From Pseudoroseicyclus tamaricis (GTDB taxonomy: Bacteria; Pseudomonadota; Alphaproteobacteria; Rhodobacterales; Rhodobacteraceae), in NCBI RefSeq assembly GCF_012070395.1, contig NZ_JAAFYS010000001.1, positions 970,001 to 1,034,000 of the forward strand: a DNA stretch of 64,000 nt, given 5' to 3'. The first letter of the stretch is position 1; each line of letters starts with the position of its first letter. Of this stretch, positions 46,015 through 64,000 are shown in pieces. The notes beneath the pieces are model-generated. The model saw nothing but the letters and a program-made list of their open reading frames with translations, did no database searches and was not told the origin of the DNA. The translations under genes were made by a program, and so were the position numbers.

Positions 46015-46015
46015 G

Positions 46016-47101
46016 ATGCGCCTCGGCGAGCCCTTCACTATCTATGCCAACCCGGCGCCGCTGCTCCTCTCCCGGCAGGCGGCCTTCCCGGGGCTGGTGA
46101 GCCTCGGCGGCGGCGAGCTCTTGGCGATGTTCTCCATCGGGCAGGCCTTCGACGCCGCCGACATGCGCAGCCACACCTGCCGCAGCCGCGATGGCGGGCG
46201 GACGTGGAGCGCGCCCGTGCCGATGCACGGCGGCACGGCGCTGGAATCGGAGAGCTTCAAGCCGGTGCGCCTGCCGGACGGGCGTCTCCTCGCCACCGGC
46301 TACGTCTTCGAGCGGCCCGACATGGTGACCCCCATCGTCGACCCGGCGACGCGCCGCATCCTGCCGCTGGTCACCAAGGCCGCGTGGTCCTCCGACGACG
46401 GCGCGACGTGGAGCGTGCCGCGCCCCTTCGATGCCGACGCGCCGCTGGAGCTCTCCGGCCCCGCCCTCGTCACCTCGGACGGCCGGCTCCTCGCCGCCGG
46501 GGCACCGTTCCACCTCGGCACCGAGGGCCACGAGGGCTGGCTGATCGAGAGCCGCGACGGCGGCGGGAGCTGGCAGAGGCTCTCCGTCTTCTACCGCTCA
46601 CCCGGCGGCAGGGTGGCGCCGTGGGAGTGCCGGCTGGCGGAGCTGGGGCCGGGGCGGATCGCGGTGCTCTTCTGGGCCTATGACACGGCCGCCGATCGCA
46701 ACCTCGACAATCACCTCGTCCTCTCCGAGGATGGGGGGCAGAGCTTCGGTCCCGCCCTCGCCACCGGCATCATGGGGCAGGCGTCGAACCTGATGCCCTT
46801 GAACCTCACGCCTCCGGGGGAGAGCGAGATCCTGACGATCCACTGCCACCGCGCGCCGCCCGTCAGCCTGACGCTCCGGCGCCTCGCCCTCACAGGCGAG
46901 GTGCGCGAAGAGGCCGACATCTTCACCGCCGAGGCGATGGGGGCGGCGACGGGCAACATCTCCGCCCAGTTCGGCTCGCTGAAGTTCGGCCAGCCCTCGC
47001 TCACGCGCCTGTCGCAGACGGAGGCGCTGGCAGCCTGGTGGCAGGTGGAAGATTGCCAGCACGTCATCAAGGGCGCCCGGATCGAGCTGGGGAGCGCCTG
47101 A
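46016..47101 (+). CDS. BNR/Asp-box repeat protein (sialidase-like fold)
   Basis: A 361-residue beta-propeller. Four Asp boxes are visible: SRDGGRTWS, SSDDGATWS, SRDGGGSWQ and SEDGGQSFG. No signal peptide is present, so it should stay in the cytoplasm, unlike secreted sialidases. The sialidase arginine triad and FRIP motif cannot be assigned with confidence; it may be a non-sialidase hydrolase or binding protein. It begins one base after the M81 gene and ends four bases before the MFS gene. Confidence 0.8.
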   Translation: MRLGEPFTIYANPAPLLLSRQAAFPGLVSLGGGELLAMFSIGQAFDAADMRSHTCRSRDGGRTWSAPVPMHGGTALESESFKPVRLPDGRLLATGYVFERPDMVTPIVDPATRRILPLVTKAAWSSDDGATWSVPRPFDADAPLELSGPALVTSDGRLLAAGAPFHLGTEGHEGWLIESRDGGGSWQRLSVFYRSPGGRVAPWECRLAELGPGRIAVLFWAYDTAADRNLDNHLVLSEDGGQSFGPALATGIMGQASNLMPLNLTPPGESEILTIHCHRAPPVSLTLRRLALTGEVREEADIFTAEAMGAATGNISAQFGSLKFGQPSLTRLSQTEALAAWWQVEDCQHVIKGARIELGSA

Positions 47102-47105
47102 CGCG

Positions 47106-49352
47106 ATGGACGGGGAGGAGCCACCGGCCGAACCGGCCGTCCAGAGCGATTTCGACAAGCTGCGGCGGATCCCGTGGTTCTACTCGCAGGTGGTGCTCAC
47201 CTCGACGGCGGTCCTGTGCACCGTCACCGCGCCGCTCACCCTCTTCGCCGCCGAGATGGGGCTGGGGGAGGGGCAGATCGGTGTCCTCGGCGGCATCATG
47301 CCCTTCCTTCAGGTCGCGGGCCTGCTGGCGCTGCCCGTCATCGGGCGCTTCGGCTCCCGCCGGGTGGCGGCCTCGGCGCTGACGGCGCGCTACGGCTTTC
47401 TCTGCCTGTTCTTCCTGACGCCCTTCTTCCTTGGCGACGTCGATGTCGTCTTCGCCATCCTCCTCGTCGCCATGACCGGCTTCGCGCTCTGCCGGGCGAC
47501 GGCGGAGGCGGCGCTGATCCCGTGGAGCCAGGAGTTCATCCCCCGCGCCATCCGGGGCCGGGTGGCGGGGCGCAACGCGCTGATCTACCTGCCGGTGGCG
47601 CTGGTGGTGAGCTGGCTCATCCGCTGGTGGCTGGACGGGCAGACGGGGCTCTGGCGCTTCTACCCCGTCTTCGCCGCCGGCATCCTCTGCGGCATCGCCG
47701 GCTCCCTCTCCCTCCTCGGGCTGCGCGGCGGCGCCCCCGCCGCCCGCGGGCGCCGGGCGGGGCCACGGCTGCGGGCGCTGGCGGAGCCCTTGGGGGACAG
47801 GAACTTCCTCGTCTTCCTCGCCGCCTCGGGGACGCAGTACCTGATCCTCGCGGCGCTCAACCTCTTCCTGCTGCTGTTCTTCCGTGACCTCGGCATGCGC
47901 TCGGGGGAGCTGGTCTTCCTCTCCGCCCTGACGCCCGTGGGCGCCGCGCTCGGCACGCTGGCGGCGGGCTGGCTGGTGGATCGCTACGGGACGCGGCCGG
48001 TGTTCCTCACCCTCATCGGCGGGCAGATCCTGCTCTTCCTCGCGCTGCCCTTCATGACGGCGGAGATGGGCGGGCTGGCGGTGCTGGTGGCGGTGGCCTT
48101 CTTCTTCTTCGGCCTCTTCGCGCAGACGGCGATGGCGATCGGCGGCGTCTACATGCTCAACGTCGTGCCGCCCGCCTCGAAGGAGGCGTTCACGACGCTG
48201 CATTACATCACCGTCGGCCTCGTCGGCGGGGCGGCGACCGTCTTCGCCGGGATGCTGCTGGCGCGGCTCTCGCTCGCGCCGCTGACGCTCTTCGGCCATG
48301 CCTTCGCGCCCTTCACGGTGCTCTTCGCGCTGGCGGCCATGCTCTCCCTCGTTGCCGCCGCCGCCTTCTATGCGCTGCGCGAGGAAGGCGGGCTATCGGT
48401 GCGCGACTTCTTCGCCAACTTCTCCACCGGCAGCCCGGTCCGCGCGCTCGTCGGCATCCAGCGCATCGCCGGCCCGACGTCGGAGGATCGGCGCCGTGAG
48501 CTGGCCTATGGCCTCGGCGCGCTGCGCAGCCCGCTGGCCAAGCGCGAGCTGATCGAGGCGCTGAGCGATCCCTCCTTCGATGTGCGCCACGAGGCGGTGC
48601 AATCGCTCGGCCACCTCGCCCCGCATGAGGATGTCGTGGCCGCCCTCAGCGAGGTGCTCGGCTACGACGGGCTGGTGGAGCTGCAATACGCGGCCATCGC
48701 CTCCCTCGGGCGGCTGAAGGCACGGGGTGCGGCGGCGCAGGTCGCGGCCTTCCTCGGCAGCGACAACCCGCTGCTGCGCGCCCGGGCTCTCCGCGCGCTG
48801 GGCGAGATGGGGGCGGTGGAGGCGCTCCCGGGCCTGCGCGCCGCGCTGGCGGAGGATCCGCATCTCGACTGCCGCCTCGCCGCCGTCTCCGCCCTCGGCA
48901 AACTGCGCGACGAGGAGAGCCTCGGCGGGCAGGTGGAGATCTACTGCGAGCAGGTGGCGGACGAGCACGCGATGGCCGAGCCGCGCTCGAAGGTGGTGCT
49001 GCTGGCGCTGGCCAAGATCATCGGGGTGGAGGAGAGCTTCGCCCGCGACTGGCTGAGCGAGCAGAAGGCGCCGGGGCAGGTGCCGCCCGACCTGATGCTG
49101 CGGCTGGCGCGGATGCTGCGCCGCCAGAACGAGGCGCAGCTGCTCAAGCGCGCCGCCGGCCGCTACCGCGCCGAGGCGCCGGGGGAGGCATGGATGGCGG
49201 CGCTGACGCTGCGCCCGCTGATCTCCGGCTCGGGCCACCCCGATGCCGGCAAGGTACGCGAGCTGATCGACGGGGTGGCGGGCATCAAGGCGCCGCACCC
49301 GGCGCTACTGATCCTCGTGCTGCTCGGCGCGCGGCGCGTCCTACGCAAGTAG
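47106..49352 (+). CDS. MFS transporter fused to C-terminal HEAT repeats
   Basis: A 748-residue fusion. Residues about 20-430 form a 12-helix MFS transporter, with the loop-2/3 region IGRFGSRRVAASALTARYG and a second-half counterpart AGWLVDRYGTRPVF. After the last helix (about 400-420) come HEAT-like repeats from 450 to about 650, for example SDPSFDVRHEAVQSLGHLAP, LVELQYAAIASLGRLKARG, NPLLRARALRALGEMGAVEA and DCRLAAVSALGKL. The repeats lie on the cytoplasmic side. Last gene of the operon; it may export a product or import a related substrate, with HEAT repeats as a docking surface. Confidence 0.85.
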   Translation: MDGEEPPAEPAVQSDFDKLRRIPWFYSQVVLTSTAVLCTVTAPLTLFAAEMGLGEGQIGVLGGIMPFLQVAGLLALPVIGRFGSRRVAASALTARYGFLCLFFLTPFFLGDVDVVFAILLVAMTGFALCRATAEAALIPWSQEFIPRAIRGRVAGRNALIYLPVALVVSWLIRWWLDGQTGLWRFYPVFAAGILCGIAGSLSLLGLRGGAPAARGRRAGPRLRALAEPLGDRNFLVFLAASGTQYLILAALNLFLLLFFRDLGMRSGELVFLSALTPVGAALGTLAAGWLVDRYGTRPVFLTLIGGQILLFLALPFMTAEMGGLAVLVAVAFFFFGLFAQTAMAIGGVYMLNVVPPASKEAFTTLHYITVGLVGGAATVFAGMLLARLSLAPLTLFGHAFAPFTVLFALAAMLSLVAAAAFYALREEGGLSVRDFFANFSTGSPVRALVGIQRIAGPTSEDRRRELAYGLGALRSPLAKRELIEALSDPSFDVRHEAVQSLGHLAPHEDVVAALSEVLGYDGLVELQYAAIASLGRLKARGAAAQVAAFLGSDNPLLRARALRALGEMGAVEALPGLRAALAEDPHLDCRLAAVSALGKLRDEESLGGQVEIYCEQVADEHAMAEPRSKVVLLALAKIIGVEESFARDWLSEQKAPGQVPPDLMLRLARMLRRQNEAQLLKRAAGRYRAEAPGEAWMAALTLRPLISGSGHPDAGKVRELIDGVAGIKAPHPALLILVLLGARRVLRK

Positions 49353-49367: not shown

Positions 49368-49413
49368 CACGGAAATCGCGCGATTTCCGTGCACGAATTT
49401 CGCGCGAAATTCG
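49368..49413. repeat. Paired palindrome element, copy 2
   Basis: Between convergent genes. The first palindrome (49368-49391, 24 bp, core GGAAATCGCGCGATTTCC flanked by CAC and GTG) is followed through GTGCAC by CGAATTTCGCGCGAAATTCG (49394-49413). It has the same plan as 5134-5177 but different arms, each still self-complementary. Likely a bidirectional transcript end or REP-like site. Confidence 0.85.
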
Positions 49414-49432: not shown

Positions 49433-50245
49433 TCAGGCCAGTGCGGTGCCGGCGAGCCCGGCCTCCACCGTCAGGACGGCATCGACCAGCGCCTTCGTCT
49501 CCGGCGCCTTGGGCATCCGGAAGAGATCCATCGGCGGGCCGGCCTCGACGATGCGCCCCGAGGCGATGACCGAGACGCGGGAGGTGGAGTAGGCGACGAC
49601 CGAGAGGTCATGGGCGATCAGCACCAGCGACAGGCCGAGGTCCCGTGTCAGGTCCTTCAACAGGTTCAGCACCTGCGCCTGGATCGAGACGTCGAGGGCC
49701 GAGACCGGCTCGTCGGCGATCAGCACCCGCGGCCCCGGCATCAGCGCCCGGGCGATGGCGATGCGCTGCAGCTGCCCGCCGGAGAACTCGTGGGGATAGC
49801 GCTCCAGCGCCGCCGGCGTCAGGCCCACCTGGCCGATCACCTCGTGCATCCGGGCGACGTGGTCGCCTTCCACTCTCAGGCTCCGCATCGGCTCCAGCAG
49901 CGCCGTGCCGACCTTCATGCGCGGGTCGAGGGAGGAGCGGGGGTTCTGCATCACCACCTGCACGCCGCGGCGGAAGGCGGCGCGGCGGGCAGGCGGCGCG
50001 GCCCAGACGCTCTGCTCTTCGAAGAGGACCTGCCCCTCCTGCGGTTGTTCCAGCCCGGTGAGGATGCGGGTGAGGGTCGTCTTGCCGGCCCCGGATTCGC
50101 CGACGAGGCCGACCGCCTCGCCCTGGCCCACGGCGAAATCCACCTTGTCGAGAACCGTCAGCCGGGGCTTGGGCGCGAAGAGGGTCTGCCGGGCCAGCGT
50201 GTAGATCTGGCTGACGCCGCGCATCTCCAGCAGCGGGGCGCTCAT
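49433..50245 (-). CDS. Orphan peptide-type ABC transporter ATPase (DppF-like)
   Basis: A 270-residue ATPase that looks intact: Walker A GESGAGKTT, signature FSGGQLQRIAIARAL, Walker B VLIADEPVSALD, H-loop LIAHDLSVV. The start MSAPLLEMRGVSQIYTLARQ is typical of DppF. Its ATG overlaps the stop of a truncated DppD remnant (ATGA), so it was the last gene of a peptide importer operon whose upstream genes are gone. Without permeases and promoter it is probably silent or shares partners encoded elsewhere. Confidence 0.85.
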   Translation of the reverse strand: MSAPLLEMRGVSQIYTLARQTLFAPKPRLTVLDKVDFAVGQGEAVGLVGESGAGKTTLTRILTGLEQPQEGQVLFEEQSVWAAPPARRAAFRRGVQVVMQNPRSSLDPRMKVGTALLEPMRSLRVEGDHVARMHEVIGQVGLTPAALERYPHEFSGGQLQRIAIARALMPGPRVLIADEPVSALDVSIQAQVLNLLKDLTRDLGLSLVLIAHDLSVVAYSTSRVSVIASGRIVEAGPPMDLFRMPKAPETKALVDAVLTVEAGLAGTALA

Positions 50246-50521
50246 GCCTCCGCCTCCCGAGGGGCCGGGGCTTCCTCCTCCACCGGGTGCCAGCAGGCGA
50301 CGCCGTCGGAGCGGCCGGTCAGCTCGGGCATCTCGCGCCGGCATTTCTCGCTCGCCGCCGGGCAGCGGGGTGGAAGGCGCAGCCGGAGGGCAGGGATTGA
50401 GGGGCGGGACCATGCCGGGGATTGAGGGCAGGCGGGTGGGGCCATCCTCGGTGATATTGTCCATCGTCGGCTGCGAGTAGCGCAGGCCGCGCGTGTAGTG
50501 GTGCCGGAAACTGGGTTCAGT
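50242..50521 (-). pseudogene. Truncated DppD-like ATPase, C-terminal remnant with frameshifts
   Basis: Only the C-terminal Cys-rich domain remains. It reads [11 protein letters not shown] and RLPSIPGMVPPL in one frame, LPSGCAFH in a second, and PRCPAASEKCRREMPEL followed by VACWHP in a third. Together these give the oligopeptide-transporter C-terminal motif. The two frame changes (near 50395 and 50369) both look like loss of one C from a C run, so sequencing error there is possible. The missing ATPase core and promoter are real: unrelated SDR sequence begins at about 50523. Confidence 0.75.
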
Positions 50522-50522
50522 C

Positions 50523-50669
50523 ATGAATAGCCGGATCGGCCAGCCGGCGGATATCGGCGGGGCGGCCGTCTTCCTCGCCGTTGACGAAGCCCGCTACATC
50601 ACCGGGCAGATGCTATATATAGACGGCGGCATCATCGCTAATCAGATATCTTGGGAAGACCTGTCGTGA
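50523..50669 (+). pseudogene. Truncated short-chain dehydrogenase, C-terminal remnant
   Basis: A 48-codon stretch reads [20 protein letters not shown] then [18 protein letters not shown], the normal last part of an SDR (RIGxPEDIAxAxxFLASDEAxYITGQxLxVDGG). The Rossmann core and YxxxK site are absent. The ATG at 50523 is probably fortuitous. The stop overlaps the GntR start (GTGA), showing that the SDR and GntR genes once formed an operon. Confidence 0.8.
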
Positions 50670-51661
50670 ACAAGGCGATCGCCCCCCGCCACCTGCAACT
50701 GCGCGAGATGCTGCTGCGCCGCTGGAAGGCCAATGGCCTGAAGGTGGGTGACCGGATCGAATCCCAGAACGAGATCATCAAGTTCTGCCAGTTCTCGCTC
50801 ATAACCGTGGTGAAGACGCTGAAGGACCTCGAGGCAGAGGGCGTCATCCGCCGGCAGGTCGGCAAGGGCTCCTTCCTCGTCCGCGCGCCGTGGGCGGAGG
50901 CCTTCTACCGCATCGGCTTCTTCTACAACCGCGACGTCGTGGGCGGCGGCATCTTCGACAACGTCTTCTACACGCGCATGGTCATGGCCTTCGAGAAGCA
51001 GGTGGTCAGCGACGGGCATGCCTTCATCATGGGCTCCTTCCGGCATGGCAACATGCCGGTGGAGGTGTTCGAGGCGCTGGATGTCGTCGTCCTCACCTCC
51101 GTCACCGACGAGACGGGGCTCGACGTGATCGACAGGGTGGCGAGCCAGGTCTGCCTGATCGACCACGTGGTCGATCACCCGCGCGTCCATTCCTACCGCA
51201 TCGACTTCGCCCCCGCCTTCCGCGCCATGGTGGCGCATCACGGGGGCCGGCCGGCGCGCTACCTCTACATCGACAGCGAGCTGCCGACGCAGGAACTGGC
51301 GGCGCGGCGGCGCTGGGCGGAAGACGCCGTGGCGGATGCGCCCGAGGGCAGCAGCCTGCGGATGCTGAAGATCGACCCCGAAAGCCGCAGCGCCGCCAAT
51401 GCCGAGGCCCTGCGCGCCGAGCTGGAGGCGCATCCGGCCGATGTCATCTTCGGCCACGCCAATGCCGAGTGGGAGCAGTCGCTGGAAGAGCTTGCCCCCG
51501 GCGCGGCGCTCTACCCGATGTCGCTCGATCCGGCGCAGCGGGGCTTCACCGTCGATGCCGCCGGCTGGATGGCCGACGTCCTGCCGCGCATCTACGCCAA
51601 TTTCGAGGACAGGCAGGCGGAGGGGCAGATCCACGCCCACACCGCGACCTTCCACCCCTGA
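50666..51661 (+). CDS. GntR-type regulator with periplasmic-binding-protein-like sensor domain
   Basis: A 331-residue regulator. The N-terminal winged helix ([41 protein letters not shown]) is GntR-like; from about 75 a LacI-type sensor fold follows ([39 protein letters not shown]). The GTG at 50666, with GGGAAG eight bases upstream, is preferred to a TTG at 50651. It overlaps the stop of the SDR remnant. The original target operon promoter was probably lost with the SDR 5' half. Confidence 0.82.
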
Positions 51662-51685: not shown

Positions 51686-52084
51686 ATGCTCAAGATCGTC
51701 GACAAGGGCGCCCGCTCCCACCTGCCGTTCTCCCCCGCCATCATCGCGGGGGACCTGATGTTCATCTCCGGCCAGGCCTCCGTCAGCCGCGAGGACGGGG
51801 CGATCATCGAGGATACCTTCGAGGGGGAGATGCGCCGCTCCATCGACAATCTGGAGGCGATCCTGAAGGAGGCGGGGGCGACGCTGGATCACGTCATCCA
51901 GGTGCGCAGCTACCTCGGTGCCGGCGACTGGGGAGCGGAGTACAACCGCATCTATGCCGAGTACTTCCCCGAGCCGCGCCCGGTGCGCACCACCATCTCC
52001 GACGTGCTGGGAACGCTCCTGAAGTTCGAGCTCGACGCCGTCGCCTACCTGCCCTCCACGCGGATGGAGGCGGAGCGCCTCTGA
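51686..52084 (+). CDS. RidA/YjgF-family protein
   Basis: A 132-residue trimeric Rid-fold protein. The conserved Arg is in PVRTTI (R101) and the conserved Glu in FELDAVAY (E115), the pair that binds and hydrolyses imines in active RidA proteins. It lies 24 bases after the GntR gene with AAAGGA upstream. It may deaminate an enamine/imine made by the lost dehydrogenase pathway; sequence alone does not show which Rid subgroup. Confidence 0.85.
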   Translation: MLKIVDKGARSHLPFSPAIIAGDLMFISGQASVSREDGAIIEDTFEGEMRRSIDNLEAILKEAGATLDHVIQVRSYLGAGDWGAEYNRIYAEYFPEPRPVRTTISDVLGTLLKFELDAVAYLPSTRMEAERL

Positions 52085-52561
52085 GCTCCGCGCCATCGGG
52101 GCGGGCCCCGATCCCTGCGATGGATGTCGTTGCCGCGCCTCTGGTCGGCTCCGTGGGCGGGCCGGGACTGACCCGGCCCTGGAGGGCGTCGGCCAGACCC
52201 TTCCCGGCCCGATCTCGTTAAAGGCGACGGCCGGGAACAGCTCCGAAAAGCCCGACGACCTTGACCCTGGCACCGGCCACACCGTCGCCCTGCCGAAGGG
52301 CCGCACGCCGGTCGTTCCCCGTTTCAAAGATTGACGTCACATCACCCTGACGAAAAGCGGCGCCGCCCGTCTTGGAAGGGCGCGCGCTCACCCTATGTCT
52401 GAAGGGTTCGAGGCAATTAGCCTGGTACACGAGTTCGTGTCTGAAATGTGATCATAAATCCCCCGAGGTAAAGGGAAATATTTGGCCACTTCGTCCGTTC
52501 GCGTGCAGGTGCGGGACAAACAACCGCTTCACTCGAGATCATGGAATAAGGGATACACCTC
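52085..52561. other. 477-bp intergenic region before the outer-membrane protein
   Basis: No gene seen. A 70-codon minus-strand frame (52218-52430) starts with GTG, has no ribosome site and no recognisable motif. GC content drops noticeably from about 52400 (for example TGATCATAAAT and AAATATTTGG), which is where the promoter of the barrel gene at 52562 should lie. I cannot place -35/-10 boxes reliably. Confidence 0.5.
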
Positions 52562-53398
52562 ATGAAAACTCAAGCCTTCATCGGGGCCGTCGTCGCCAGC
52601 TTCGTCGCCACCACCGCGTTCGCCCAGACGTCCGCCTTCGATCTTGAAGACGCCGCCGTGGACGAGGTCGAGGACCTGCAGGAAGACATCGCCGACGACG
52701 CCGAGCGCGACGTCTTCCTCGGCAACCGCGGCCGTGAGACCGGCACGTTCGGCTCCGTTGCCCTGCGCTACGTTGCCAACGACGATGCCAACGGCGATGA
52801 CACCGCCTCGCTCGGCCTCGGCCTGTCCTATGGCTACTACGACGGCCTCAACGGCTTCGACAGCACGCTGTCCTACTCCTACCAGGAGACCGATGGCGAC
52901 GCGGACACCGACCGGCTGACGGGTAGCCTCGGCTACACCCGCGACTTCGGCCCGCGCATCTTCGGCTTTGCCGACGCGACGGTGCGGATCGACCGCGAGA
53001 CCGATGAGCCGGACGACAACTTCCGCGACGCCTTCGTCGGCTTCGGTGCCGGCTACCGCGTGTTCGACACGGACACGATGCAGTGGACGGCCAAGGCCGG
53101 CCCGGGCTACCGCTACATCGAGAAGGCCTCCGGCGAGGAAGTCGACGAAGCCGCCTACGTGGTGGAATCCAACTACTACATGGAATTCCGCCCCGGTGTC
53201 GCGATCACCAACGACACCCAGCTGATCGGCTCTGACTTCGACACCACCGTGTCGAACGATCTCGCGCTCAGCGTGGCCCTGTCGAACGCCCTGTCGCTGC
53301 GCACGAGCTATGTCGTCGAATTCAGCGGCTCCGACTTCGATGATCTGGACCGCGATTCCAGCACCATCGGCGCCTCGGTGGTCTACAGCTTCAACTAA
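52562..53398 (+). CDS. Outer-membrane beta-barrel protein (DUF481-like)
   Basis: A 278-residue secreted protein. The signal peptide MKTQAFIGAVVASFVATTAF is cut after FAQ. A short acidic helix (DAAVDEVEDLQEDIADDAE) precedes a barrel with alternating strands such as LGLGLSYGYYDGL, GFGAGYRVFDTDTMQWTAKA and GASVVYSFN; the chain ends with Phe-Asn, near the usual aromatic end of barrels. It is very acidic, common in marine bacteria. It stands alone with its own AT-rich promoter region and a strong terminator. Function unknown; structural or pore role likely. Confidence 0.85.
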   Translation: MKTQAFIGAVVASFVATTAFAQTSAFDLEDAAVDEVEDLQEDIADDAERDVFLGNRGRETGTFGSVALRYVANDDANGDDTASLGLGLSYGYYDGLNGFDSTLSYSYQETDGDADTDRLTGSLGYTRDFGPRIFGFADATVRIDRETDEPDDNFRDAFVGFGAGYRVFDTDTMQWTAKAGPGYRYIEKASGEEVDEAAYVVESNYYMEFRPGVAITNDTQLIGSDFDTTVSNDLALSVALSNALSLRTSYVVEFSGSDFDDLDRDSSTIGASVVYSFN

Positions 53399-53677: not shown

Positions 53678-54955
53678 TCAGAAGAACGTCATCACCCCAT
53701 CCACCACGTCATAGCTGTCGCTGACGACGGGCAGGAACCGCCACTTGTCGAAGGCCGTGCAGGGGTGGGAGATGCCGCTGGCGACCATGTCGCCCACCTG
53801 CCATTCCGCGCCGTTCCCCAGCCGCACATAGGCGTGCTGGTCGTTGACCGCCGTCACTTCCGCCTCGCCCACGGGCAGGAACCCCTTGCCCGGGCGGTAG
53901 AGCTTCAGCGGCACCGGCAGGCCGGCGTCATAGGGCACGTCGCGCTTGCCCATGGTGAGGAAGGCGAGGCCCGGCTCCGGCATCGACTGCACGTAGGCCC
54001 AGGCCTCCAGCGCCGGATGCAGCTCGCTCTTCCAGCTGCGATGCGGGTCGGCGCGGCCGGCCTCCTGCATTGCCTTGTAGCCGCCGTTGTCCGTCGTGAC
54101 GTAGCAGCCCGAGCGCAGGAGGATGCGCACCGGGACCGGCAGCTCCAGCTCCCCGAACGCCTCCGCCATCAGGTCGAAGTGGCCGGAGCCGCCGCCGGTG
54201 AGGATGAACTCCTCGGCTCCCTCGTAGAGCGCCGGGGGCAGGGCGCGGGCGATCTCCACCACCTGGCGCGCATAGCCGCGCACCGGCTCCGGCCCCTCGG
54301 CGAGGCCGGGCACCACCCCCTCGAAGGAGGCAACGCCGGCGAAGCGGAAGAGCGCCGGGTCGGCGGCCAGCATCGCTTCGGCCAGGTCCGCCGCCTCCTC
54401 CTCCGTCCGCAGGCCCGTCCGCCCGCCGGCCACGCCGACCTCCAGCAGCAGGTGGAGGGGGCGGGGCAGGCCGAGGCCGGAGAGGTGGCGCGCCATGTTG
54501 TCCAGCTGGGCCGGCGAGTCGACGAAGACGTAGAACTCGAACGCCTCCCGCTCCGCCATCATCTGCGCCACCGAGGCGAGCGCCGCCCGCCCGAGGAGCT
54601 GGTTCCCCAGCACCACGCGGTCCACGCCGTAGCGGTGCATCACCTGCACCTGCGCCACGTTCGCCGCCGTGATCGCCCAGGAATAGCGCAGCTGCTCGGC
54701 GAAGAGCTGCGGCGCCATGGTCGTCTTGCCATGGGGCGCCAGCGACAACCCGTGGGCGGAGAGGTAGTCGCCGAAGACGCGGGCGTTGTGGTCCAGCGCG
54801 GCGCGCTTGAGCACCATGAGCGGCAGCGGCATGTCCTCGCGCAGCACGTTCCAGCCCTGCGCCGCGATGTGCTTCAGCGCGAAGGGGGCGGCGGTGCCGG
54901 GGAGGCCCTTGGTGCGGCCGTCGAGCACGGTCTCGTAGATCTCGGACAGGTCCAT
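53678..54955 (-). CDS. DSD1-family PLP-dependent enzyme (D-threonine aldolase/D-serine dehydratase-like)
   Basis: A 425-residue alanine-racemase-fold enzyme. The PLP Lys is in LAPHGKTTMAP (K77); the C-terminal metal motif SGISHPCTAFDKW supplies His and Cys for zinc or manganese. Family members act on D-threonine, D-3-hydroxyaspartate, D-serine or other D-amino acids. The ATG overlaps the stop of a truncated HpcH-type aldolase (TGATG), so it was a downstream operon gene and has lost its original promoter. Confidence 0.87.
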   Translation of the reverse strand: MDLSEIYETVLDGRTKGLPGTAAPFALKHIAAQGWNVLREDMPLPLMVLKRAALDHNARVFGDYLSAHGLSLAPHGKTTMAPQLFAEQLRYSWAITAANVAQVQVMHRYGVDRVVLGNQLLGRAALASVAQMMAEREAFEFYVFVDSPAQLDNMARHLSGLGLPRPLHLLLEVGVAGGRTGLRTEEEAADLAEAMLAADPALFRFAGVASFEGVVPGLAEGPEPVRGYARQVVEIARALPPALYEGAEEFILTGGGSGHFDLMAEAFGELELPVPVRILLRSGCYVTTDNGGYKAMQEAGRADPHRSWKSELHPALEAWAYVQSMPEPGLAFLTMGKRDVPYDAGLPVPLKLYRPGKGFLPVGEAEVTAVNDQHAYVRLGNGAEWQVGDMVASGISHPCTAFDKWRFLPVVSDSYDVVDGVMTFF

Positions 54956-55110
54956 CACAGGTCCCCGAAGGCGGCGACGGCGGCATCGGCATAGCTCGCC
55001 AGCGCCACCACGTCCGCCCCGACGGAGAGGAGGTTGTAGCCCATGTCGGCGAGGGAGGCGATCTGCGGCTGGCCGCAGACGGTGGCGGCGATCTTGCCGT
55101 GCCGGCGCGC
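54955..55110 (-). pseudogene. Truncated HpcH/HpaI-type aldolase, C-terminal remnant
   Basis: About 50 codons on the minus strand read RRHGKIAATVCGQPQIASLA then GYNLLSVGADVVALASYADA, ending AAFGDL. This matches the C-terminal end of HpcH/HpaI aldolases (the GKIxxxxCG strand and GxxxxxVGxD strand). The catalytic core and start are missing; homology stops at about 55108. It overlaps the DSD1 start. Confidence 0.7.
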
Positions 55111-55112
55111 CC

Positions 55113-55229
55113 CTGGCGGAGCTGCGCGCCCCGGCCCCCGGCCTCGTCATGTTCGCCCGCCGCAACCGCTGGGTGGAGGAGGGCGAGACCCTCATCGCCC
55201 TCGCCGAGGACGACCCGACGGAGGGCTGA
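55113..55229 (+). pseudogene. Truncated plus-strand gene end, possibly a deacylase C-terminus
   Basis: A 38-codon tail reads LAELRAPAPGLVMFARRNRW then VEEGETLIALAEDDPTEG before TGA. The pattern (RAPxxGLV...VxxGExLxxIA) resembles the C-terminal sandwich of AstE/M14-type deacylases; this match is weak. It has no start of its own and abuts the HpcH remnant within a few bases. Confidence 0.5.
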
Positions 55230-55400
55230 CCGCCTCTCGCCGTCTTGCAAATGGGGCGGGGGGAGCGGGGCAGCGCCCCATCCCCCCGTCGGCCGGCAAG
55301 GCCGGCCGGGCATCTCGAACGGCGGGCCGCACCTCATCGTCGAGGTGGCACCGCCCGGATCCCGGCAGGGGTCCGGGCAAGCGCGCCGGGCCCGTCCCTC

Positions 55401-56465
55401 TCAGAGGTCCGGCCCGATCCGCTCCCCCGTGGCGGCGTCGAAGAGGTGCAGGTGCGCGTGCTCGATGCCCAGCGTGATCGCGTCGCCCGGCCGCTGGGTC
55501 ACCCGCTCGCGGAAGGCGGCGGTCAGCACCTGGCCGGCGAGGCGCAGCATCACCTGCGTCTCCGATCCCGTCGGCTCCACCGTCACCACCTCGGCCGTCA
55601 GCCCCTCCATGGCCGGCAGGAAGCCCTCCGGCCGGATCCCCAGCACCACGTCGCGCCCCGAGACCCCGCTCACGTCCCCCGGCAGGGGGATGCACGTGCC
55701 GTCCTCGGCGACGAAGGTCCCGCCCTCCAGCCGCCCCGGCAGCTGGTTCATCGCCGGCGAGCCGATGAAGCCGGCGACGAAGAGGTTCGCCGGCCGGTCG
55801 TAGAGTTCCAGCGGCGTGCCGATCTGCTCGATCGTGCCGTCGCGCATGACGACGATGCGGTCGGCCATCGTCATCGCCTCGATCTGGTCGTGGGTGACGT
55901 AGACGGTCGTCGTCCGCAGGCGCTGGTGGTTGAGCTTGATCTCCGAGCGCATCTGCACGCGCAGCTTGGCGTCGAGGTTCGAGAGTGGCTCGTCGAAGAG
56001 ATAGACCTGCGGGTTGCGCACGATGGCCCGCCCCATCGCCACCCGCTGCCGCTGCCCGCCGGAGAGCTGGCGGGGATGGCGGCCGAGGTAGGGCTCCAGC
56101 CCCAGCATCTCGGCAGCGGCGGCGACCCGCTCCTTGCGCTCGGCCACCGGCACGCCGGCGAGCTTGAGCGAGAAGCCCATGTTCTCCTCCACCGTCATGT
56201 GCGGGTAGAGCGCGTAGTTCTGGAACACCATGGCGATGTCCCGATCCTTCGGGGCAAGGCCGTTGACCGTGCGCCCCGCGATGGTGATCTCGCCCGAGGC
56301 GATGCTCTCCAGCCCCGCGATCATGCGCAGCAGGGTGGATTTGCCGCAGCCCGACGGGCCGACGAGGATGACGAATTCGCCATCCTCGATATCCAGCGAG
56401 ACGCCGTGCAGCACCTCCACGGCGCCGTAGTTCTTGCGCGCCTCTCGTATGGTCATCGCACCCAT
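55401..56465 (-). CDS. ugpC: Sugar-type ABC transporter ATPase (UgpC/MalK-like)
   Basis: A 354-residue ATPase: Walker A GPSGCGKST, signature LSGGQRQRVAMGRAI, Walker B VYLFDEPLSNLD, H-loop YVTHDQIEAMTMADR, and a C-terminal TOBE/OB region (from about 235). The start MGAMTIREARKNYGAVEVLH follows GGGGAGGAA. It is the last gene of the minus-strand sugar operon, 13 bases after dld. It should power the two permeases at 60381 and 61202. Confidence 0.9.
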   Translation of the reverse strand: MGAMTIREARKNYGAVEVLHGVSLDIEDGEFVILVGPSGCGKSTLLRMIAGLESIASGEITIAGRTVNGLAPKDRDIAMVFQNYALYPHMTVEENMGFSLKLAGVPVAERKERVAAAAEMLGLEPYLGRHPRQLSGGQRQRVAMGRAIVRNPQVYLFDEPLSNLDAKLRVQMRSEIKLNHQRLRTTTVYVTHDQIEAMTMADRIVVMRDGTIEQIGTPLELYDRPANLFVAGFIGSPAMNQLPGRLEGGTFVAEDGTCIPLPGDVSGVSGRDVVLGIRPEGFLPAMEGLTAEVVTVEPTGSETQVMLRLAGQVLTAAFRERVTQRPGDAITLGIEHAHLHLFDAATGERIGPDL

Positions 56466-56478
56466 GTCGTTCCTCCCC

Positions 56479-58203
56479 TCATGGCTGTCTCTCCGGGGCC
56501 GGGGGCGTGCCCGCCCAACCCGCGCGCTTGCTGGCGCGGCCGATCCCGGGATTGAATGAATTGGTCGGGTCGAGCTGGCGGTAGAACGCCAGCTGCTCCT
56601 CCCCCGCGTCGTAGCTGTGGCCGACATTGTGCTCGGCCGGGTAGCGCGCGCCGCGTCTGTCGAGCTCGGCCAGCAGCCGCGCTTTCAGCGCCTCGGCATC
56701 CACGCCGCGCCGCACGAAATATTCCTGGTGGAAGACGTGGCAGAAGAAGTGGCCGCAATATTGCCTGGCCACGAGATCCGCCTCGATGTCGGGGGGCAGC
56801 GTCTCGAACCAGTCCTGCGCGTTGCGGGGCAGGGCGATGTCGAGCGCCACGATCTCCTCCACCTCGCGGGCATGGACGGCGCGGTAGCGCACCACCGCGC
56901 CGCCGACGGCGAAGCGATGGAGGAAGGCGTCCTCCGCCTCGCGCGGCGTGCACTCGAAGGCATCGCCGGTGGCGGAGGGGAAGCGCCGGGCCAGCGCCTC
57001 CCGCGCCTCCTCCACGCCCTTGGCGCCGACCTTGAGGATCAGGTGATGCTCGTAGCGCTGCCGCCACTCCGTCATCCGCGCCGGCAGGTGCGGGGGCATG
57101 GCGCGGCAGGCGGCATCCAGCAGCCGGTCGCTCACGTAGGGGCCGAGGCCCAGCCGCTCCGTCAGCCCGTCGACGCGGCTCTTGGCGGCGAAGGCGCGGG
57201 GAACGTTGCGGGTGCCGAAGAGGCGGATGAAGCGGAAGAGGTCGCGCCCGTAGCGGGCGCTCAGGTCATAGGCGGTGGCGTGCAGGTACTCGCCCGCGAT
57301 GGGCAGGTGCTCGAACCCTTGGAGGATATCGCGCCGCAGCCGCCCCAGCTCCTCCGTGTCGTTGGTGCCGATGTAGAAGGTCCGCGCCCCGTCATCGGCG
57401 GGGAAGGTATCGAGCCGCAGCGCGAAGACGGCGAGGTGCCCGGCCGAGCCCGACGCCTCGTGAAGCCGCCGCGGATCGGCGTTGTAACGGGCCGGGCTGG
57501 CGGCGGAGACATCGCGGACATGCGTTCCGTATTCCCGGTCGGAGGCGGCGCGGTTGGCGCCGTGGGTCAGATCGGCCTCGTCCCACTCGCCGCGGTCGAG
57601 CCGGCCCAGCATCTCCTCGGGGTCCTGCCCCAACTCCAGCCCCAGGTGATTGACGAGCCGCAGCACCCCGTCGGCGCCGATCTGCGCGAAGAGCGCCAGC
57701 TCCGTGTAGGCCGGCCCCCGCCGCACCAGCGCGCCGCCGGAATTGTTGCACACGCCCCCGGTGACGGAGGCGCCGATGCAGGAGGAGCCGATGACGGAAT
57801 GCGGCTCGCGCCCCAGCGGCGCCAGCCGCCGCTCCAGCTGCTCCAGCGTCGCGCCCGGCTGGCAGATGACCTGCGCGCCGCCGCGGACGAGATCGACCCG
57901 CGTCATGCGCAGGGTGCTGAGGATGACGACCGGCCGGTCGTAGCTGTCCCCGTCCGGGGTGGAGCCGCCGGTGAGCCCCGTGTTCGCCGCCTGGCAGATC
58001 ACGATGACCCCCGCCTCGGCGCAGAGCTTGAGGCACCGCCATTGCTCCACCAGCGAGCCGGGGCGCAGCACGGCGAGCACCGGCCCCTCGCCCTGCCGGT
58101 AGCCGCGCCGGTAGGGGCGCGTCCGGCGCGCCCCCGTCAGCACGTGGCGCGGGCCAAGCACCCTCCGGAAGGCGCCGAGCAGCGCCTCCGGGTCGGCGCT
58201 CAT
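56479..58203 (-). CDS. dld: Quinone-dependent D-lactate dehydrogenase (Dld-like)
   Basis: A 574-residue FAD enzyme, the same length as E. coli Dld (571). The VAO-type FAD domain shows CQAANTGLTGGSTPDGDSYD and SVIGSSCIGASVTGGVCNNS; the membrane-associated cap includes GYLHATAYDLSARYGRD-like residues and the C-terminus RYPAEHNVGHSYDAGEEQL. The enzyme oxidises D-lactate and passes electrons to quinones at the inner membrane. The ATG at 58203 fits the family start. Its presence in a sugar-uptake operon suggests a D-lactate-like product of the pathway. Confidence 0.9.
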   Translation of the reverse strand: MSADPEALLGAFRRVLGPRHVLTGARRTRPYRRGYRQGEGPVLAVLRPGSLVEQWRCLKLCAEAGVIVICQAANTGLTGGSTPDGDSYDRPVVILSTLRMTRVDLVRGGAQVICQPGATLEQLERRLAPLGREPHSVIGSSCIGASVTGGVCNNSGGALVRRGPAYTELALFAQIGADGVLRLVNHLGLELGQDPEEMLGRLDRGEWDEADLTHGANRAASDREYGTHVRDVSAASPARYNADPRRLHEASGSAGHLAVFALRLDTFPADDGARTFYIGTNDTEELGRLRRDILQGFEHLPIAGEYLHATAYDLSARYGRDLFRFIRLFGTRNVPRAFAAKSRVDGLTERLGLGPYVSDRLLDAACRAMPPHLPARMTEWRQRYEHHLILKVGAKGVEEAREALARRFPSATGDAFECTPREAEDAFLHRFAVGGAVVRYRAVHAREVEEIVALDIALPRNAQDWFETLPPDIEADLVARQYCGHFFCHVFHQEYFVRRGVDAEALKARLLAELDRRGARYPAEHNVGHSYDAGEEQLAFYRQLDPTNSFNPGIGRASKRAGWAGTPPAPERQP

Positions 58204-58217
58204 GGCCCGCGCGTGGT

Positions 58218-59276
58218 TCACTCGGCCGCCTCGCTGCGCAGCCGGGAGGGGGCGTAATCGTTGAACGCCTCGTGCCCCTCGCGAAGCTTGCCGTCGGCCT
58301 CGATGAAATGCAGGCACTCCGGCAGTCCCACGGGGCCGTATTCATCGCGGTGCAGGTCCGAGATCAGGCTGTGGTGCAGCGCGTGCACGGTGAAGCCGAC
58401 GCCCCGCTTGGAGAGCTCGTCCAGCGTGAAGCGCATCACCTCGACATGCTTGGCATCGTCGCGTGCGCCCCAGACCGTCTCGGAGGCGATCAGCCCCTTG
58501 CCGACGCTGTCGGCGAAGGCGACCGTGTCCTCGATGAGCTTGATGAAGCCCTCCTTCTTGGTCACCTGCATCTGCGCGGCCTTGCCGTTCCAGACGTAGT
58601 AGGGGTGGAAGGAGAGGATATCGACCCAGGGCTCGGAGGCCTTCACGGCGGAGAGGCCGGGGTAGTTGCCGATGGTGATCGGCTGGCTCGCGCCCAGCAT
58701 CCGCACCTTGTCCGCCAGCCACTTGAGCCACTTGAGCTCGGCGGCGCGCAGGGGGCTGCCCGGGTCGTCCACGTACTCGCCCATCAGGGGCTCGTTGCAC
58801 AGATCCCAGCAATAGATGCGGTCGTCGTCCTTGTGGGCGGTGATGACGGCGTCGAGGAAGGTGGCGTGCACCTCCTCCACGATGGTCAGCTCGCGCCCCG
58901 TCGGATCGGCGGAGGAGAAGAGATCGTCCGAGTGGTTCCACGCCGTTGCCCAGGGGATCAGATGCTCCAGCCCGACGCCGCCGAAATCGCAGACCGGGTC
59001 GCGCCAGCGGTTGAAGAGCACGGGCATGACCTTGATGCCGTGGCTGGCGAAGATGCCGAGGCCGGCGTCGAGGTTGGCCATGAAGCGCTCGGGGTTCCTC
59101 TGGTAGCTCTCGTTGGAGAGCCACCACCGGCCGACGTTCCACTCGGGGAAGTAGCGCTTGCCCCGCGCGATCTCCACGGCCATCAGCCCGTGGTCGTGGT
59201 GGTTCCACACCTCCAGCCCGCTGGATCCCCAGGACCCGTCGTAGTTGAAGCCGAAGACCTCACTGGTTTCCATCAT
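58218..59276 (-). CDS. GH5-like (cellulase-fold) glycoside hydrolase
   Basis: A 352-residue TIM barrel. The acid-base Glu is in CWDLCNEPLMG (E162) and the nucleophile in LIASETVWG (E266), the clan GH-A pattern; VGRWWLSNESYQRNPE and VDILSFHPYYVWNG support it. No signal peptide, so it acts in the cytoplasm on imported oligosaccharides or glycosides. The start overlaps the ADH stop (ATGATG, two possible ATGs). Substrate not predictable; small mannosides or glucosides are typical for such operons. Confidence 0.8.
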   Translation of the reverse strand: MMETSEVFGFNYDGSWGSSGLEVWNHHDHGLMAVEIARGKRYFPEWNVGRWWLSNESYQRNPERFMANLDAGLGIFASHGIKVMPVLFNRWRDPVCDFGGVGLEHLIPWATAWNHSDDLFSSADPTGRELTIVEEVHATFLDAVITAHKDDDRIYCWDLCNEPLMGEYVDDPGSPLRAAELKWLKWLADKVRMLGASQPITIGNYPGLSAVKASEPWVDILSFHPYYVWNGKAAQMQVTKKEGFIKLIEDTVAFADSVGKGLIASETVWGARDDAKHVEVMRFTLDELSKRGVGFTVHALHHSLISDLHRDEYGPVGLPECLHFIEADGKLREGHEAFNDYAPSRLRSEAAE

Positions 59277-60343
59277 CTCACTCCCTCTTCTTCCATGGCG
59301 GCGTCGGCGTGCGTCGCCGTCTCCCCGCGATCCTCATTCCGATCCTCGTCCCCAGGGACGATCACCAGCTTGCCCGTGCCCGGCGCATTGGCGAGCAGGG
59401 CCGCGTAGGCCTCCCGCGCCCCGGCGAGCGGGTAGCGCCCGGTGATCAGCGCGGCGGGCCTGACCCGCCCGCGCCCCAGAAGCTGCAACATCTGCGACCA
59501 GACACCGGGGCTGCCGAGCGAGCCGGTCAGCGACTGGTCGCTGACGACCATGCGGTCGACATCCACCGGGTGGCTGGAACAGCCCGTCAGGCTGACGGCC
59601 ACCAGCCGGCCGTTGCTGGCCAGCCGCCCGAGCGCGGCGCGCAGGCCGTTGGCATTGCCGCTGGCCTCGATCACCACGTCGAACTGCTCGGCCAGCTCCG
59701 CCGGCCGTGCGCCGATGCCGGCGGCGCGCGCCATGCGGGCCTCGTCCGGCTCCATCACCGCGACCTCGCAGGCGTAAAGATCCATGGCGATGGCGGCGGC
59801 GAGCCAGCCGATGGTGCCGGCGCCGACGACGAGCACCCGGTCGCCCTTGTTCCAGCCGGCACGCAGCACGGCGCGCAGGGCGACGGCGGCGGGCTCGGCG
59901 AAGACGGCGTCGTCATCGGCGATCTCCCCCGGCACCTTGTAGGCGCTGGTGGCGGGAAAGCGGACGAGGCCGGCCAGCGCGCCCTCCTGCTTCATGATGC
60001 CGGTCTCGGCGCGCGCATCGCACTGGTGGTAATCGCCCGCATCGCAGCGCAGGCAATGCCCGCAGCCGATGCTGCACTCCCCCACCACCCGGTCGCCGGG
60101 GGCGAAGCCGCGCGCCTCCTCCCCCACCGCGACGACGCGGGCGACCCATTCGTGGCCGGGCGTCATCGGCAGGCTGGCGCGGCCGTCGCGCAGGTAGATG
60201 TGGCTGCAATCGGCCAGCTCCGCATCGGTTCGGCAGAGGCCGATGGCCAGCGGGGCGAGCAGCAGGTCGCCCGGGCCGGGCAGGGGGGGCGGCGCCGGCA
60301 GGACATCGATCCGTCCGGGCGCCGAGATCACGACGTGTCTCAC
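59273..60343 (-). CDS. Zn-dependent alcohol dehydrogenase (MDR family)
   Basis: A 356-residue MDR enzyme. Catalytic zinc ligands are in GLCRTD (Cys) and GHEW (His, Glu); the structural zinc lobe is present as GECSIGCGHCLRC and YHQC. The NAD site is VLVVGAGTIGWLAAAIA. It resembles sorbitol/threonine dehydrogenases acting on polyols. The C-terminal 25 residues (GDEDRNEDRGETATHADAAM) are an acidic, lineage-specific tail. It probably oxidises an imported polyol or a hydrolysis product. Confidence 0.87.
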   Translation of the reverse strand: MRHVVISAPGRIDVLPAPPPLPGPGDLLLAPLAIGLCRTDAELADCSHIYLRDGRASLPMTPGHEWVARVVAVGEEARGFAPGDRVVGECSIGCGHCLRCDAGDYHQCDARAETGIMKQEGALAGLVRFPATSAYKVPGEIADDDAVFAEPAAVALRAVLRAGWNKGDRVLVVGAGTIGWLAAAIAMDLYACEVAVMEPDEARMARAAGIGARPAELAEQFDVVIEASGNANGLRAALGRLASNGRLVAVSLTGCSSHPVDVDRMVVSDQSLTGSLGSPGVWSQMLQLLGRGRVRPAALITGRYPLAGAREAYAALLANAPGTGKLVIVPGDEDRNEDRGETATHADAAMEEEGVR

Positions 60344-60355
60344 GTAAGTCTCTCC

Positions 60356-60391
60356 GTCACTGGCTCGGTCACTGGCCCGGTCACTGGCTCG
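60356..60391. repeat. Three-copy 12-bp tandem repeat
   Basis: GTCACTGGCTCG, GTCACTGGCCCG, GTCACTGGCTCG in direct tandem. On the minus strand the first repeat encodes the last residues and TGA of the permease (SSQ-stop), so the repeat runs from its stop codon into the 37-base gap before the ADH gene. Unit length keeps the frame, a slippage-prone site. Confidence 0.8.
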
Positions 60392-61205
60392 ACAGCGAGC
60401 CGCCGATGCCGCCCACGCTGAAGTATCGGTTGAGCAGGGCGAACAGGATGACCGGGGGCATCATGGTGATGACGGAGACCGCCATGACGGCGCCCCAGTC
60501 GGTGGATGTCTGCTGGAAGAAGGATTGCAGGCCGATGGGCAGCGTGAAGCTGTCGTCGGACTTCAGGAAGACGATGGCGACGAGGTAGTCGTTCCAGCTC
60601 AAGAGGAAGGTGAAGATCGCGGTGCTCAGCACCCCGGGCAGCGAGTTGCGCAGCACGATCCGCACGAAGCCGCCGAAGACGGAGCAGCCGTCGATCCACG
60701 CCGCCTCCTCCAGCGCCGCGGGGATGGAGTCGAAATAGGCCGCCATCATCCATGTCGCGACGGAGAGAGAGCCCGCCACGTAGATGATGACCAGCGCGCC
60801 GAGGTGGTCGGCCAGCCCCAGCCGCGCGAAGAGGATGAAGAGCGGGATGACCGCCGTGATGATCGGCAGCGACTGCACGATGAAGAGCAGCAGCGAGTAG
60901 CCCTCGATCACCTTGTGCCGCCCGCGGCTGATCACGTAGCCCGCCGGCGCCGAGACGATGATCGCCGCGACGACGGTGAAGAGCGACACCATGAGAGAGT
61001 TGCCCAGCCAGTCGAGCACCAGCGATGTCTCGAAGACATGCCTGAAGTTCTGCAAGCTGATCAGCGCCGGCTCCCCGCCCGGGCGCGGGCGCAGCGACAG
61101 CATGATGGTGGCGCCGATGGGCAGCAGCGCGATGGCCGTGAAGACGAAGACACCGGCGGTGCGCAGCGCGGTCGCGCGGTCGAAACTCGGTCCTGCGGCG
61201 GTCAT
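60381..61205 (-). CDS. Sugar-type ABC transporter permease (MalG/UgpE-like)
   Basis: A 274-residue permease with six helices; starts MTAAGPSFDRATALRTAGVF. The EAA loop reads ALEEAAWIDGCSVFGGFVRI, the carbohydrate (CUT1) type. It is coupled to the partner permease by ATGA. Its 3' end lies inside a tandem repeat, so the C-terminal residues may vary between strains. Confidence 0.88.
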   Translation of the reverse strand: MTAAGPSFDRATALRTAGVFVFTAIALLPIGATIMLSLRPRPGGEPALISLQNFRHVFETSLVLDWLGNSLMVSLFTVVAAIIVSAPAGYVISRGRHKVIEGYSLLLFIVQSLPIITAVIPLFILFARLGLADHLGALVIIYVAGSLSVATWMMAAYFDSIPAALEEAAWIDGCSVFGGFVRIVLRNSLPGVLSTAIFTFLLSWNDYLVAIVFLKSDDSFTLPIGLQSFFQQTSTDWGAVMAVSVITMMPPVILFALLNRYFSVGGIGGSLSSQ

Positions 61206-62152
61206 GCTGTCGCTCCCGATTTGCGGATCTGGCGGAAGAGCACCATCGACACGACGACCATCGCGGCCGTCATCATCAGCGCCACGGCGACGCCGGGGCC
61301 CGTCTGGAAGTTCTGGAACACCAGCCGGTAGGCCAGCACGATCAGCGAGGTCGTGGCGTCGATCGGGCCGCCGGCGGTGAGCAGGTAGATGGTGGGGAAG
61401 TCGTTGATGCAGAAGATCGTCATCAGGATCCAGCTGATGTAGGTCGTCCGCCGCGTCAGCGGCAGCGTGATGTAGAACAGCTGCTGGCGCGCGCTGGCCC
61501 CGTCGAGCGAGGAGGCCTCGTAGACGCTCCGGTCGATGGCCGAGAGCGCGGCGCTCATCATCAGCATCATGAAGGGAAAGCTGCACCAGATCTTGAAAAC
61601 GCAGACGGTCACCGCCGCCAGCACCGGATCGGCGAGGAAGAGCGGCGTGCCGAAGCCGAGAAAGCGCGCCAGCGCCGGCATCGGCGAGTCGGGCGTCGCC
61701 ACCAGCCAGTTCCACGCCATGGACGACACCACGATGGGCACCACCCACGGCAGCAGCAGCAGCACCTTGAAGACACCGCCGAAGTGGATGCGCGCCTGCA
61801 GCGCCAGCGCCAGCGCCATGCCGATCAGCCAGCTCCCCGCGACGCCGGAGATGGTGAAGATCGCGGTGAAGCGCACCGCGTGCCAGAAGTCGGGGCTCTG
61901 GAGGACCTTGGCGAAGTTCGCCAGCCCGACGAATTCCCCGGCGGTGATGAGGGTGCCGTTGCGCACCGATTGCAGCGCCGCGTAGGCGACGGGGTAGGCG
62001 TTCAGCAGCGCCAGGAGCAGCACCGACGGCGCGATGAGCACCAGGAACAGGCGCCCGCGGCTGGCACTCCAGTCGGTGCGGGGGCGGCTGGCGCCCCCGC
62101 TCCGGCCTTGTGCCGCGCGGACCACGTCAAGCGGGTCTGTGCGGTCCGACAT
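61202..62152 (-). CDS. Sugar-type ABC transporter permease (MalF/UgpA-like)
   Basis: A 316-residue permease. A polar N-terminal tail (1-33) precedes helix one (LFLVLIAPSVLLLALLNAYP); the EAA loop is VYEASSLDGASARQQLFYITL. This is the CUT1 UgpA/MalF-like half of the pore. It lies 19 bases after the binding-protein gene. Confidence 0.88.
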   Translation of the reverse strand: MSDRTDPLDVVRAAQGRSGGASRPRTDWSASRGRLFLVLIAPSVLLLALLNAYPVAYAALQSVRNGTLITAGEFVGLANFAKVLQSPDFWHAVRFTAIFTISGVAGSWLIGMALALALQARIHFGGVFKVLLLLPWVVPIVVSSMAWNWLVATPDSPMPALARFLGFGTPLFLADPVLAAVTVCVFKIWCSFPFMMLMMSAALSAIDRSVYEASSLDGASARQQLFYITLPLTRRTTYISWILMTIFCINDFPTIYLLTAGGPIDATTSLIVLAYRLVFQNFQTGPGVAVALMMTAAMVVVSMVLFRQIRKSGATA

Positions 62153-62171
62153 CGGCTCTGGCCCCTCTGGC

Positions 62172-63461: not shown

Positions 63462-63652
63462 GTCCTGTCTCCTCTCCCTGCGTGGTCCCCTCGATCCTTC
63501 GGGCAAGGCGATACCGGTGGCCGCGGCGCATGTGCTGCCGGGCCTCCTCTCGCCGCCGTTTCGGTCGATCGGGATGTGCGCTCTGACAGTCGGCCGCCCC
63601 GGCCCCGCCTGACGTAAGGCGGGTAAAACCTCCCCGGGACGCTGACTGTCCC

Positions 63653-63676
63653 AAAAGTATATCGCGATTCACTTTT
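63653..63676. promoter_or_regulatory. Palindromic TetR-type operator
   Basis: Arms AAAAGT (63653-63658) and ACTTTT (63671-63676) around the self-complementary centre ATCGCGAT (63661-63668); 10 of 12 pairs match. It lies over the predicted promoter of the sugar operon and 104 bases before the TetR start, so the adjacent regulator is the likely ligand and a repressor. Confidence 0.6.
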
Positions 63677-63682
63677 CGTCAA
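63656..63682 (-). promoter_or_regulatory. Sigma-70-type promoter of the sugar ABC operon
   Basis: On the minus strand TTGACG (63682-63677) is followed after 15 bases by TATACT (63661-63656), or after 17 bases by TACTTT. The -10 box sits inside the palindrome, so repressor binding would block RNA polymerase. About 195 bases of leader precede the binding-protein ATG. Confidence 0.5.
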
Positions 63683-63779
63683 GCGCCGGATGTGCTCTTG
63701 TCGCCGCAGGGCGCCGGATGGCACATGGCCCTGCCCTCGGGGGCAGGCGCGGCGCGAAGAGGACAGACAGGACCGAGCA

Positions 63780-64000
63780 GTGGAAAAACGCACGAGGGGC
63801 CCCTACGAGGCGGGCCGCAAGCGCCGGGCGCGCATTCTGGAAGAGGCGGTCGAGGTCTTCGGCCGCAAGGGCTACAGCGCCGGGTCGCTGCAGGAGATCG
63901 CCCAGCGGGCCGGCATCACGACGGCCGGGATCATGCGGCACTTCGACAGCAAGGCCGAGCTGCTCGTCGAGGTGCTGCGCTACTGGGACGATGCCCAGAG
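63780..64000 (+). CDS. TetR-family transcriptional regulator, N-terminal fragment
   Basis: Only the first 73 codons are in the window. The GTG at 63780 opens RKRRARILEEAVEVFGRKGY, then LQEIAQRAGITTAGIMRHFD and SKAELLVEVL, a complete TetR HTH. The gene runs off the right edge, so the ligand domain is unseen. It is divergent from the sugar operon and probably represses it through the palindrome at 63653. Confidence 0.88.
   Translation, partial: MEKRTRGPYEAGRKRRARILEEAVEVFGRKGYSAGSLQEIAQRAGITTAGIMRHFDSKAELLVEVLRYWDDAQ

Follow-up and report, generated by a model that had tools for sequence, protein, structure and literature searches.

Truncated aldolase and SDR genes as the two edges of a retained GntR-RidA-DSD1 core in Pseudoroseicyclus tamaricis

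The closest counterpart of the locus considered here is an alphaproteobacterial catabolic gene cluster, and the abstracts examined contain no description of its SDR1-GntR-RidA/DSD1-HpcH arrangement. A search of genome contigs for DSD1 returned 12 loci, six of which (L034-L038, L043) carry an HpcH gene directly before DSD1. No HpcH match was seen in L039-L042 and L044, and in L033 DSD1 faces RidA and the place of HpcH is taken by a gene that its sequence marks as IclR-like. The GntR regulator gene occurs in three other genomes of a 394-genome sample of the family (G188, G389 and G332) and in two of a 361-genome sample of the order (G425 and G478); four of these five contain the cluster, and G332, which lacks it, has a partial GntR match. 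None of the relatives found belongs to the same genus. The common gene order starts with MlrC, a BNR protein and an MFS/HEAT protein on the plus strand, followed by a NagA-like amidohydrolase on the minus strand and by SDR1, GntR and RidA on the plus strand, and it ends with DSD1, HpcH, SDR2, Gfo1, SDR3 and Gfo2 on the minus strand; some relatives have a second BNR protein near NagA. HpcH stands fifth in a co-directional operon (Gfo/Idh-SDR-Gfo/Idh-SDR-HpcH-DSD1), where SDR2-Gfo1-SDR3-Gfo2 precede it on its own strand in all nine loci whose sequence reaches far enough (L034-L038, L043, L070, L093, L095). SDR1 is divergent from the NagA-like gene in nine of nine loci (L034-L038, L068, L070, L093, L095), and wherever both RidA and DSD1 are present (10/10) they are adjacent, end to end, and no other gene separates them. 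The MlrC, BNR and MFS/HEAT genes stand in the same order beside the cluster in all four family genomes that have it (L068, L070, L093, L095), and dpp transporter and SMP30/AstE genes lie further right in the three genomes with enough contig (G389, G478, G425).

The window, by which we mean the whole 64,000-nucleotide stretch analysed, corresponds to positions 970,001-1,034,000 of the 1.41-Mb contig C1 in a 3.85-Mb genome assembled as 4 contigs with 99.79% completeness. It shares with the alphaproteobacterial cluster (L034-L038, L070, L093, L095) the genes, order and orientation of SDR1'-GntR-RidA and DSD1-HpcH', where the prime marks a truncated gene. In contrast to that cluster, the window holds the core only, with both edge genes truncated and a DUF481 gene between RidA and DSD1. 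GntR, RidA and DSD1 are the only complete cluster genes, and they keep the order and orientation seen in relatives. The GntR-family regulator (50666-51661, plus strand) has a weak PF00392 helix-turn-helix match below the cut-off and 48-55% identity to its cluster relatives, and RidA (L-PSP family; 51686-52084, plus strand) matches PF01042 and is 61-72% identical to its own. The 425-residue DSD1 protein (53678-54955, minus strand) belongs to the D-serine dehydratase/D-threonine aldolase superfamily by PF14031 and a weak PF01168 match, and its nearest solved structure is 3gwq, a "D-serine deaminase" (E 7.6e-84). Full-length SDR1 and HpcH are absent, their last ~45 and 51 codons respectively remaining, and SDR2-Gfo1-SDR3-Gfo2 are missing from their place upstream of HpcH. 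What look like two scars in this region are the places where a single retained core, SDR1'-GntR-RidA-DSD1-HpcH', begins and ends.

At the right-hand end, an earlier note made from the sequence alone had described the C-terminal end of a minus-strand aldolase meeting a plus-strand gene end at about 55108-55112. This was confirmed by base-by-base comparison with eight HpcH relatives and with the genome's own AstE gene, which places the joint at 55,107-55,111. The HpcH/HpaI aldolase remnant (54955-55110, minus strand) consists of the last 51 codons, ARRHGKIAATVCGQPQIASLADMGYNLLSVGADVVALASYADAAVAAFGDL (54958-55110), and a stop at 54955-54957 that has one base in common with the DSD1 start ATG (54953-54955). 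Its tail is 77% identical to that of the intact HpcH of L035 (E 1e-20). DNA similarity to the aldolase relatives stops at 55111 in L035, L093 and L095, at 55110 in L068 and at 55098 in L034 and L070, so that four of the six relatives aligning there place the boundary at 55110-55111 and the other two at 55098. The plus-strand partner (55110-55229) is a 3' remnant of an AstE/aspartoacylase-family gene with 39 codons (PLAELRAP...DDPTEG, 55110-55226) and a stop at 55227-55229. It aligns to the very C-terminus of an intact AstE/AspA-family gene of the same genome, assigned to this family by PF24827 and located 10.4 kb away (C1:1035587-1036552), at 57% identity (E 1.8e-6). The AstE tails of G188 and G389 match it at 49% and 47%, and the other 391 of the 394 family genomes gave no match at E<=0.01. 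The identity of both tails rests on these homologues because Pfam recognises neither of them, a search with no power at this length; tblastn of both tails against plasmids, equally powerless for such short sequences, also found no match. The window plus 11 kb contains 17 intergenic gaps of at least 120 nt.

The left-hand joint has the same topology, as the earlier note had stated, with a minus-strand dppD tail ending at 50506 and a plus-strand SDR tail starting at 50530. The SDR1 remnant (50530-50669, ~45 codons) was recognised from a PF13561 tail match and from DNA homology that starts at 50530-50535 in six relatives. To its left, dppF and the dppD tail stand in place of NagA. The dppF gene, an intact ABC-transporter ATPase (49433-50245, minus strand; PF00005), and the dppD remnant (50242-50506, minus strand), which matches the DppD tail of L078 in a frame that shifts twice, are most like the dpp operon of G175 (DppF 70%). 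The two frameshifts are single-base changes close together and would represent decay or sequencing error; they suggest decay.

Illegitimate (non-homologous or microhomology) recombination leaves abrupt joints of this kind, and its known joints in bacterial genomic islands combine a clean fusion of two truncated genes with loss of several genes and an adjoining foreign cassette. Ancestry likewise changes abruptly at both ends of the retained core. At the right joint GCGC at 55107-55110 fits both parents, giving an overlap of 0-4 nt, and the left joint has 23 nt of filler (50507-50529) that fits neither, as read against relatives of only ~64-78% DNA identity. Unlike the known cases, the recombination type at these joints is one that we infer, as is the order of events, and neither a parental genome nor an intermediate one was found. 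Long repeats of high similarity, direct or inverted, do not flank the two joints, and base composition gave no clear separation of segments. The best inverted pair near both joints (50261-50298/55101-55138, 71%) was set aside as it looks like chance in GC-rich DNA.

We consider it probable that, in this mosaic catabolic island, illegitimate recombination removed or replaced several genes without touching the core, and that the right joint marks one end of that change. The ancestor would have carried MlrC-BNR-MFS/HEAT, a minus-strand NagA divergent from plus-strand SDR1-GntR-RidA, and DSD1-HpcH-SDR2-Gfo1-SDR3-Gfo2 on the minus strand, with dpp and SMP30/AstE genes to the right. On the right, loss would have taken the aldolase 5' part and the next four operon genes upstream, and the aldolase tail would have been fused to the AstE-like tail with an overlap of at most 4 nt and with a plasmid-related cassette next to it. 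On the left, loss of the 5' part of SDR1 would have brought its tail against the decayed dppD tail. Several genes would have been removed or replaced at each joint, and the core block would have stayed intact while DNA on either side was exchanged, so that two joints now frame one short block. Nothing in this is out of the ordinary: the catabolic island has been reshuffled, and remnants of genes lie where the retained core ends.

Several other explanations have to be weighed against this multi-gene exchange. In one of them, which follows the earlier note, a small deletion at each joint took only the 5' halves and the shared promoter of divergent neighbours, by a mechanism recurrent at divergent promoters. 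It is true that what remains at each joint is 3' ends only, on opposite strands. However, HpcH is internal to its operon in nine of nine loci and beside AstE in none of them, SDR1 has NagA as its partner in nine of nine and is never beside dppD (0/9), and the loss would also have to include four or more other operon genes. We therefore give very little credence to such deletions: the idea of a lost shared promoter is contradicted at the right joint, the divergent pair envisaged at 50.5 kb fares no better, and the comparison with relatives, examined for synteny, turned up no locus with an HpcH-AstE divergent pair (0/9). Nor does a repeated recombination mechanism have to be invoked, because the 3'/3' topology arises whenever opposite-strand segments meet. 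Streamlining is too strong a term as well, since the region has gained a foreign cassette and a DUF481 gene. It is also improbable, if less so than the promoter deletions, that a 4.6-kb piece from inside the cluster was captured in one step, for example via a transfer particle or plasmid, and inserted whole between dppD and AstE. The block does measure 4.6 kb and is cut within the gene at either end, and both joints would have been made at once, but the ancestral left neighbours MlrC, BNR-repeat protein and MFS/HEAT protein (44503-49352, plus strand; identified by Pfam and synteny) lie only 1.2 kb leftward in ancestral order and orientation, and SMP30/AstE genes lie rightward as in G389, G478 and G425. 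Insertion elsewhere would not give ancestral neighbours on both sides.

The missing gene parts bear on the two remaining explanations. More has been lost than the aldolase 5' end and a promoter: measured against L070, ~4.2 kb of operon is missing. A genome-wide search covered the aldolase, SDR1, SDR2, Gfo1 and dppD. The aldolase 5' part and Gfo1 had no match in the genome at E<=1e-5, and its only two other HpcH genes are both intact. The best match was 37% for SDR2 and 36% over the full length for SDR1, and none of 126 ATPase matches was a dppD 5' fragment, the best of them being 50% identical and running past the cut. This absence favours real loss and argues against both translocation and a chimeric join. 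If an inversion or translocation had broken the genes and carried their 5' halves to another place in the genome, this would explain why opposite-strand segments meet at both joints, but with those halves not found in the genome such an event has next to no likelihood. An assembly error, either an in silico join of unrelated segments or an omission of sequence, might be suspected because the region is GC-rich and the dppD tail has two single-base frameshifts, which could be sequencing errors. It is nevertheless very unlikely, since the halves that the aldolase, SDR1 and dppD lack occur nowhere else in the 4-contig, 99.79% complete assembly; both joints also lie inside the 1.4-Mb contig, and the flanks hold independently recognisable gene blocks. 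As edges of a retained core, the two scars do not point to a process that repeatedly deletes promoters, or to a systematic assembly fault.

To the right of the core, a plasmid-related sugar cassette adjoins the lost half of the conserved catabolic cluster. This sugar-transport/D-lactate-dehydrogenase cassette occupies 55401-64000 and extends beyond the end of the window, to 64415 (L073). It encodes, on the minus strand, a UgpC-type ATPase, Dld, a hypothetical protein, an ADH, two permeases and a binding protein, and on the plus strand a TetR regulator. Its counterpart on Martelella mediterranea plasmid pMM170 (NZ_CP020333.1) has the same gene order over ~8.6 kb, with 76-78% DNA identity across 55501-63464 and 63786-64394. 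The protein encoded at 58221-59276 is 88% identical to its pMM170 counterpart, and none of the other 382 genomes sampled in the family has this marker gene. From these sequence matches, horizontal acquisition of the cassette is likely. The two versions differ at the edge facing the core: ugpC is followed by a Gfo/Idh oxidoreductase on pMM170 and by the AstE remnant in the window. The cassette does not explain the AstE tail, because pMM170 has no AstE beside ugpC and the similarity ends at 55501; the tail may be a separate remnant.

Why the core stayed while its surroundings changed may be connected to its chemistry. RidA acts on the reactive enamines formed by PLP enzymes. A DSD1-type enzyme and RidA are a chemically sensible pair because PLP enzymes can give reactive enamines, a property stated in PMC9127364. 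The L033 locus retains the DSD1/RidA pair without HpcH. Selection on this pair could conceivably account for retention of the core. A further-reaching proposal is that GntR-RidA-DSD1 is a minimal D-amino-acid dehydratase and enamine-clearing module kept by selection while the rest of the pathway was swapped; the cut edges would then be footprints of exchange limited by the core, and the fusion would re-wire DSD1 so that a new operon on its own strand (55.4-63.4 kb) lies upstream of it. We regard this proposal as doubtful. In columns that are otherwise invariant, the window departs at 11/175 positions in DSD1, 5/59 in RidA and 17/119 in GntR, and most relatives have lower departure rates (0.6-4.1%, 0-10% and 0-8.1%, respectively), but the flanking MFS/HEAT control departs at 144/480 and the larger phylogenetic distance of the window confounds the column test. 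The GntR gene (50666-51661) exceeds every one of the nine relatives, 17/119 versus at most 8.1%, a comparison subject to the same confounding by distance; perhaps its divergence follows from the lost pathway. The DUF481 outer-membrane-type gene (52562-53398, plus strand; PF04338), which lies between RidA and DSD1 only here, has relatives at 40% identity on Roseivivax plasmids. A third gene tail at 52215-52331, HU-like by eye, found no support in searches and was dropped.

What the arrangement means for expression of DSD1 can be outlined from its surroundings. Another part of the earlier account, that the aldolase lacks its 5' part and that DSD1, which overlaps the remnant stop, has been left without its ancestral operon promoter, is borne out by the operon synteny; that promoter presumably lay above Gfo2. 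DSD1 is now 0.45 kb downstream of a co-oriented operon. A promoter and terminator scan around the right joint, which is powerless in this setting and where no site was expected, gave neither a sigma-70-like site nor a terminator. The GC-rich spacer at 55228-55403 (minus strand) folds strongly (z -3.15) and has no T-run, and its hairpins sit between the AstE remnant and the convergent UgpC-type gene. These hairpins could stop read-through from the new operon into DSD1, or could let it pass. Elsewhere in the window, paired palindromes of the type GGAAATCGCGCGATTTCC/GAATTTCGCGCGAAATTC follow gene ends at 49371-49410 and 5135-5176, with three matches in the window versus 0.03 expected, and they are perhaps terminators or a small repeated element.
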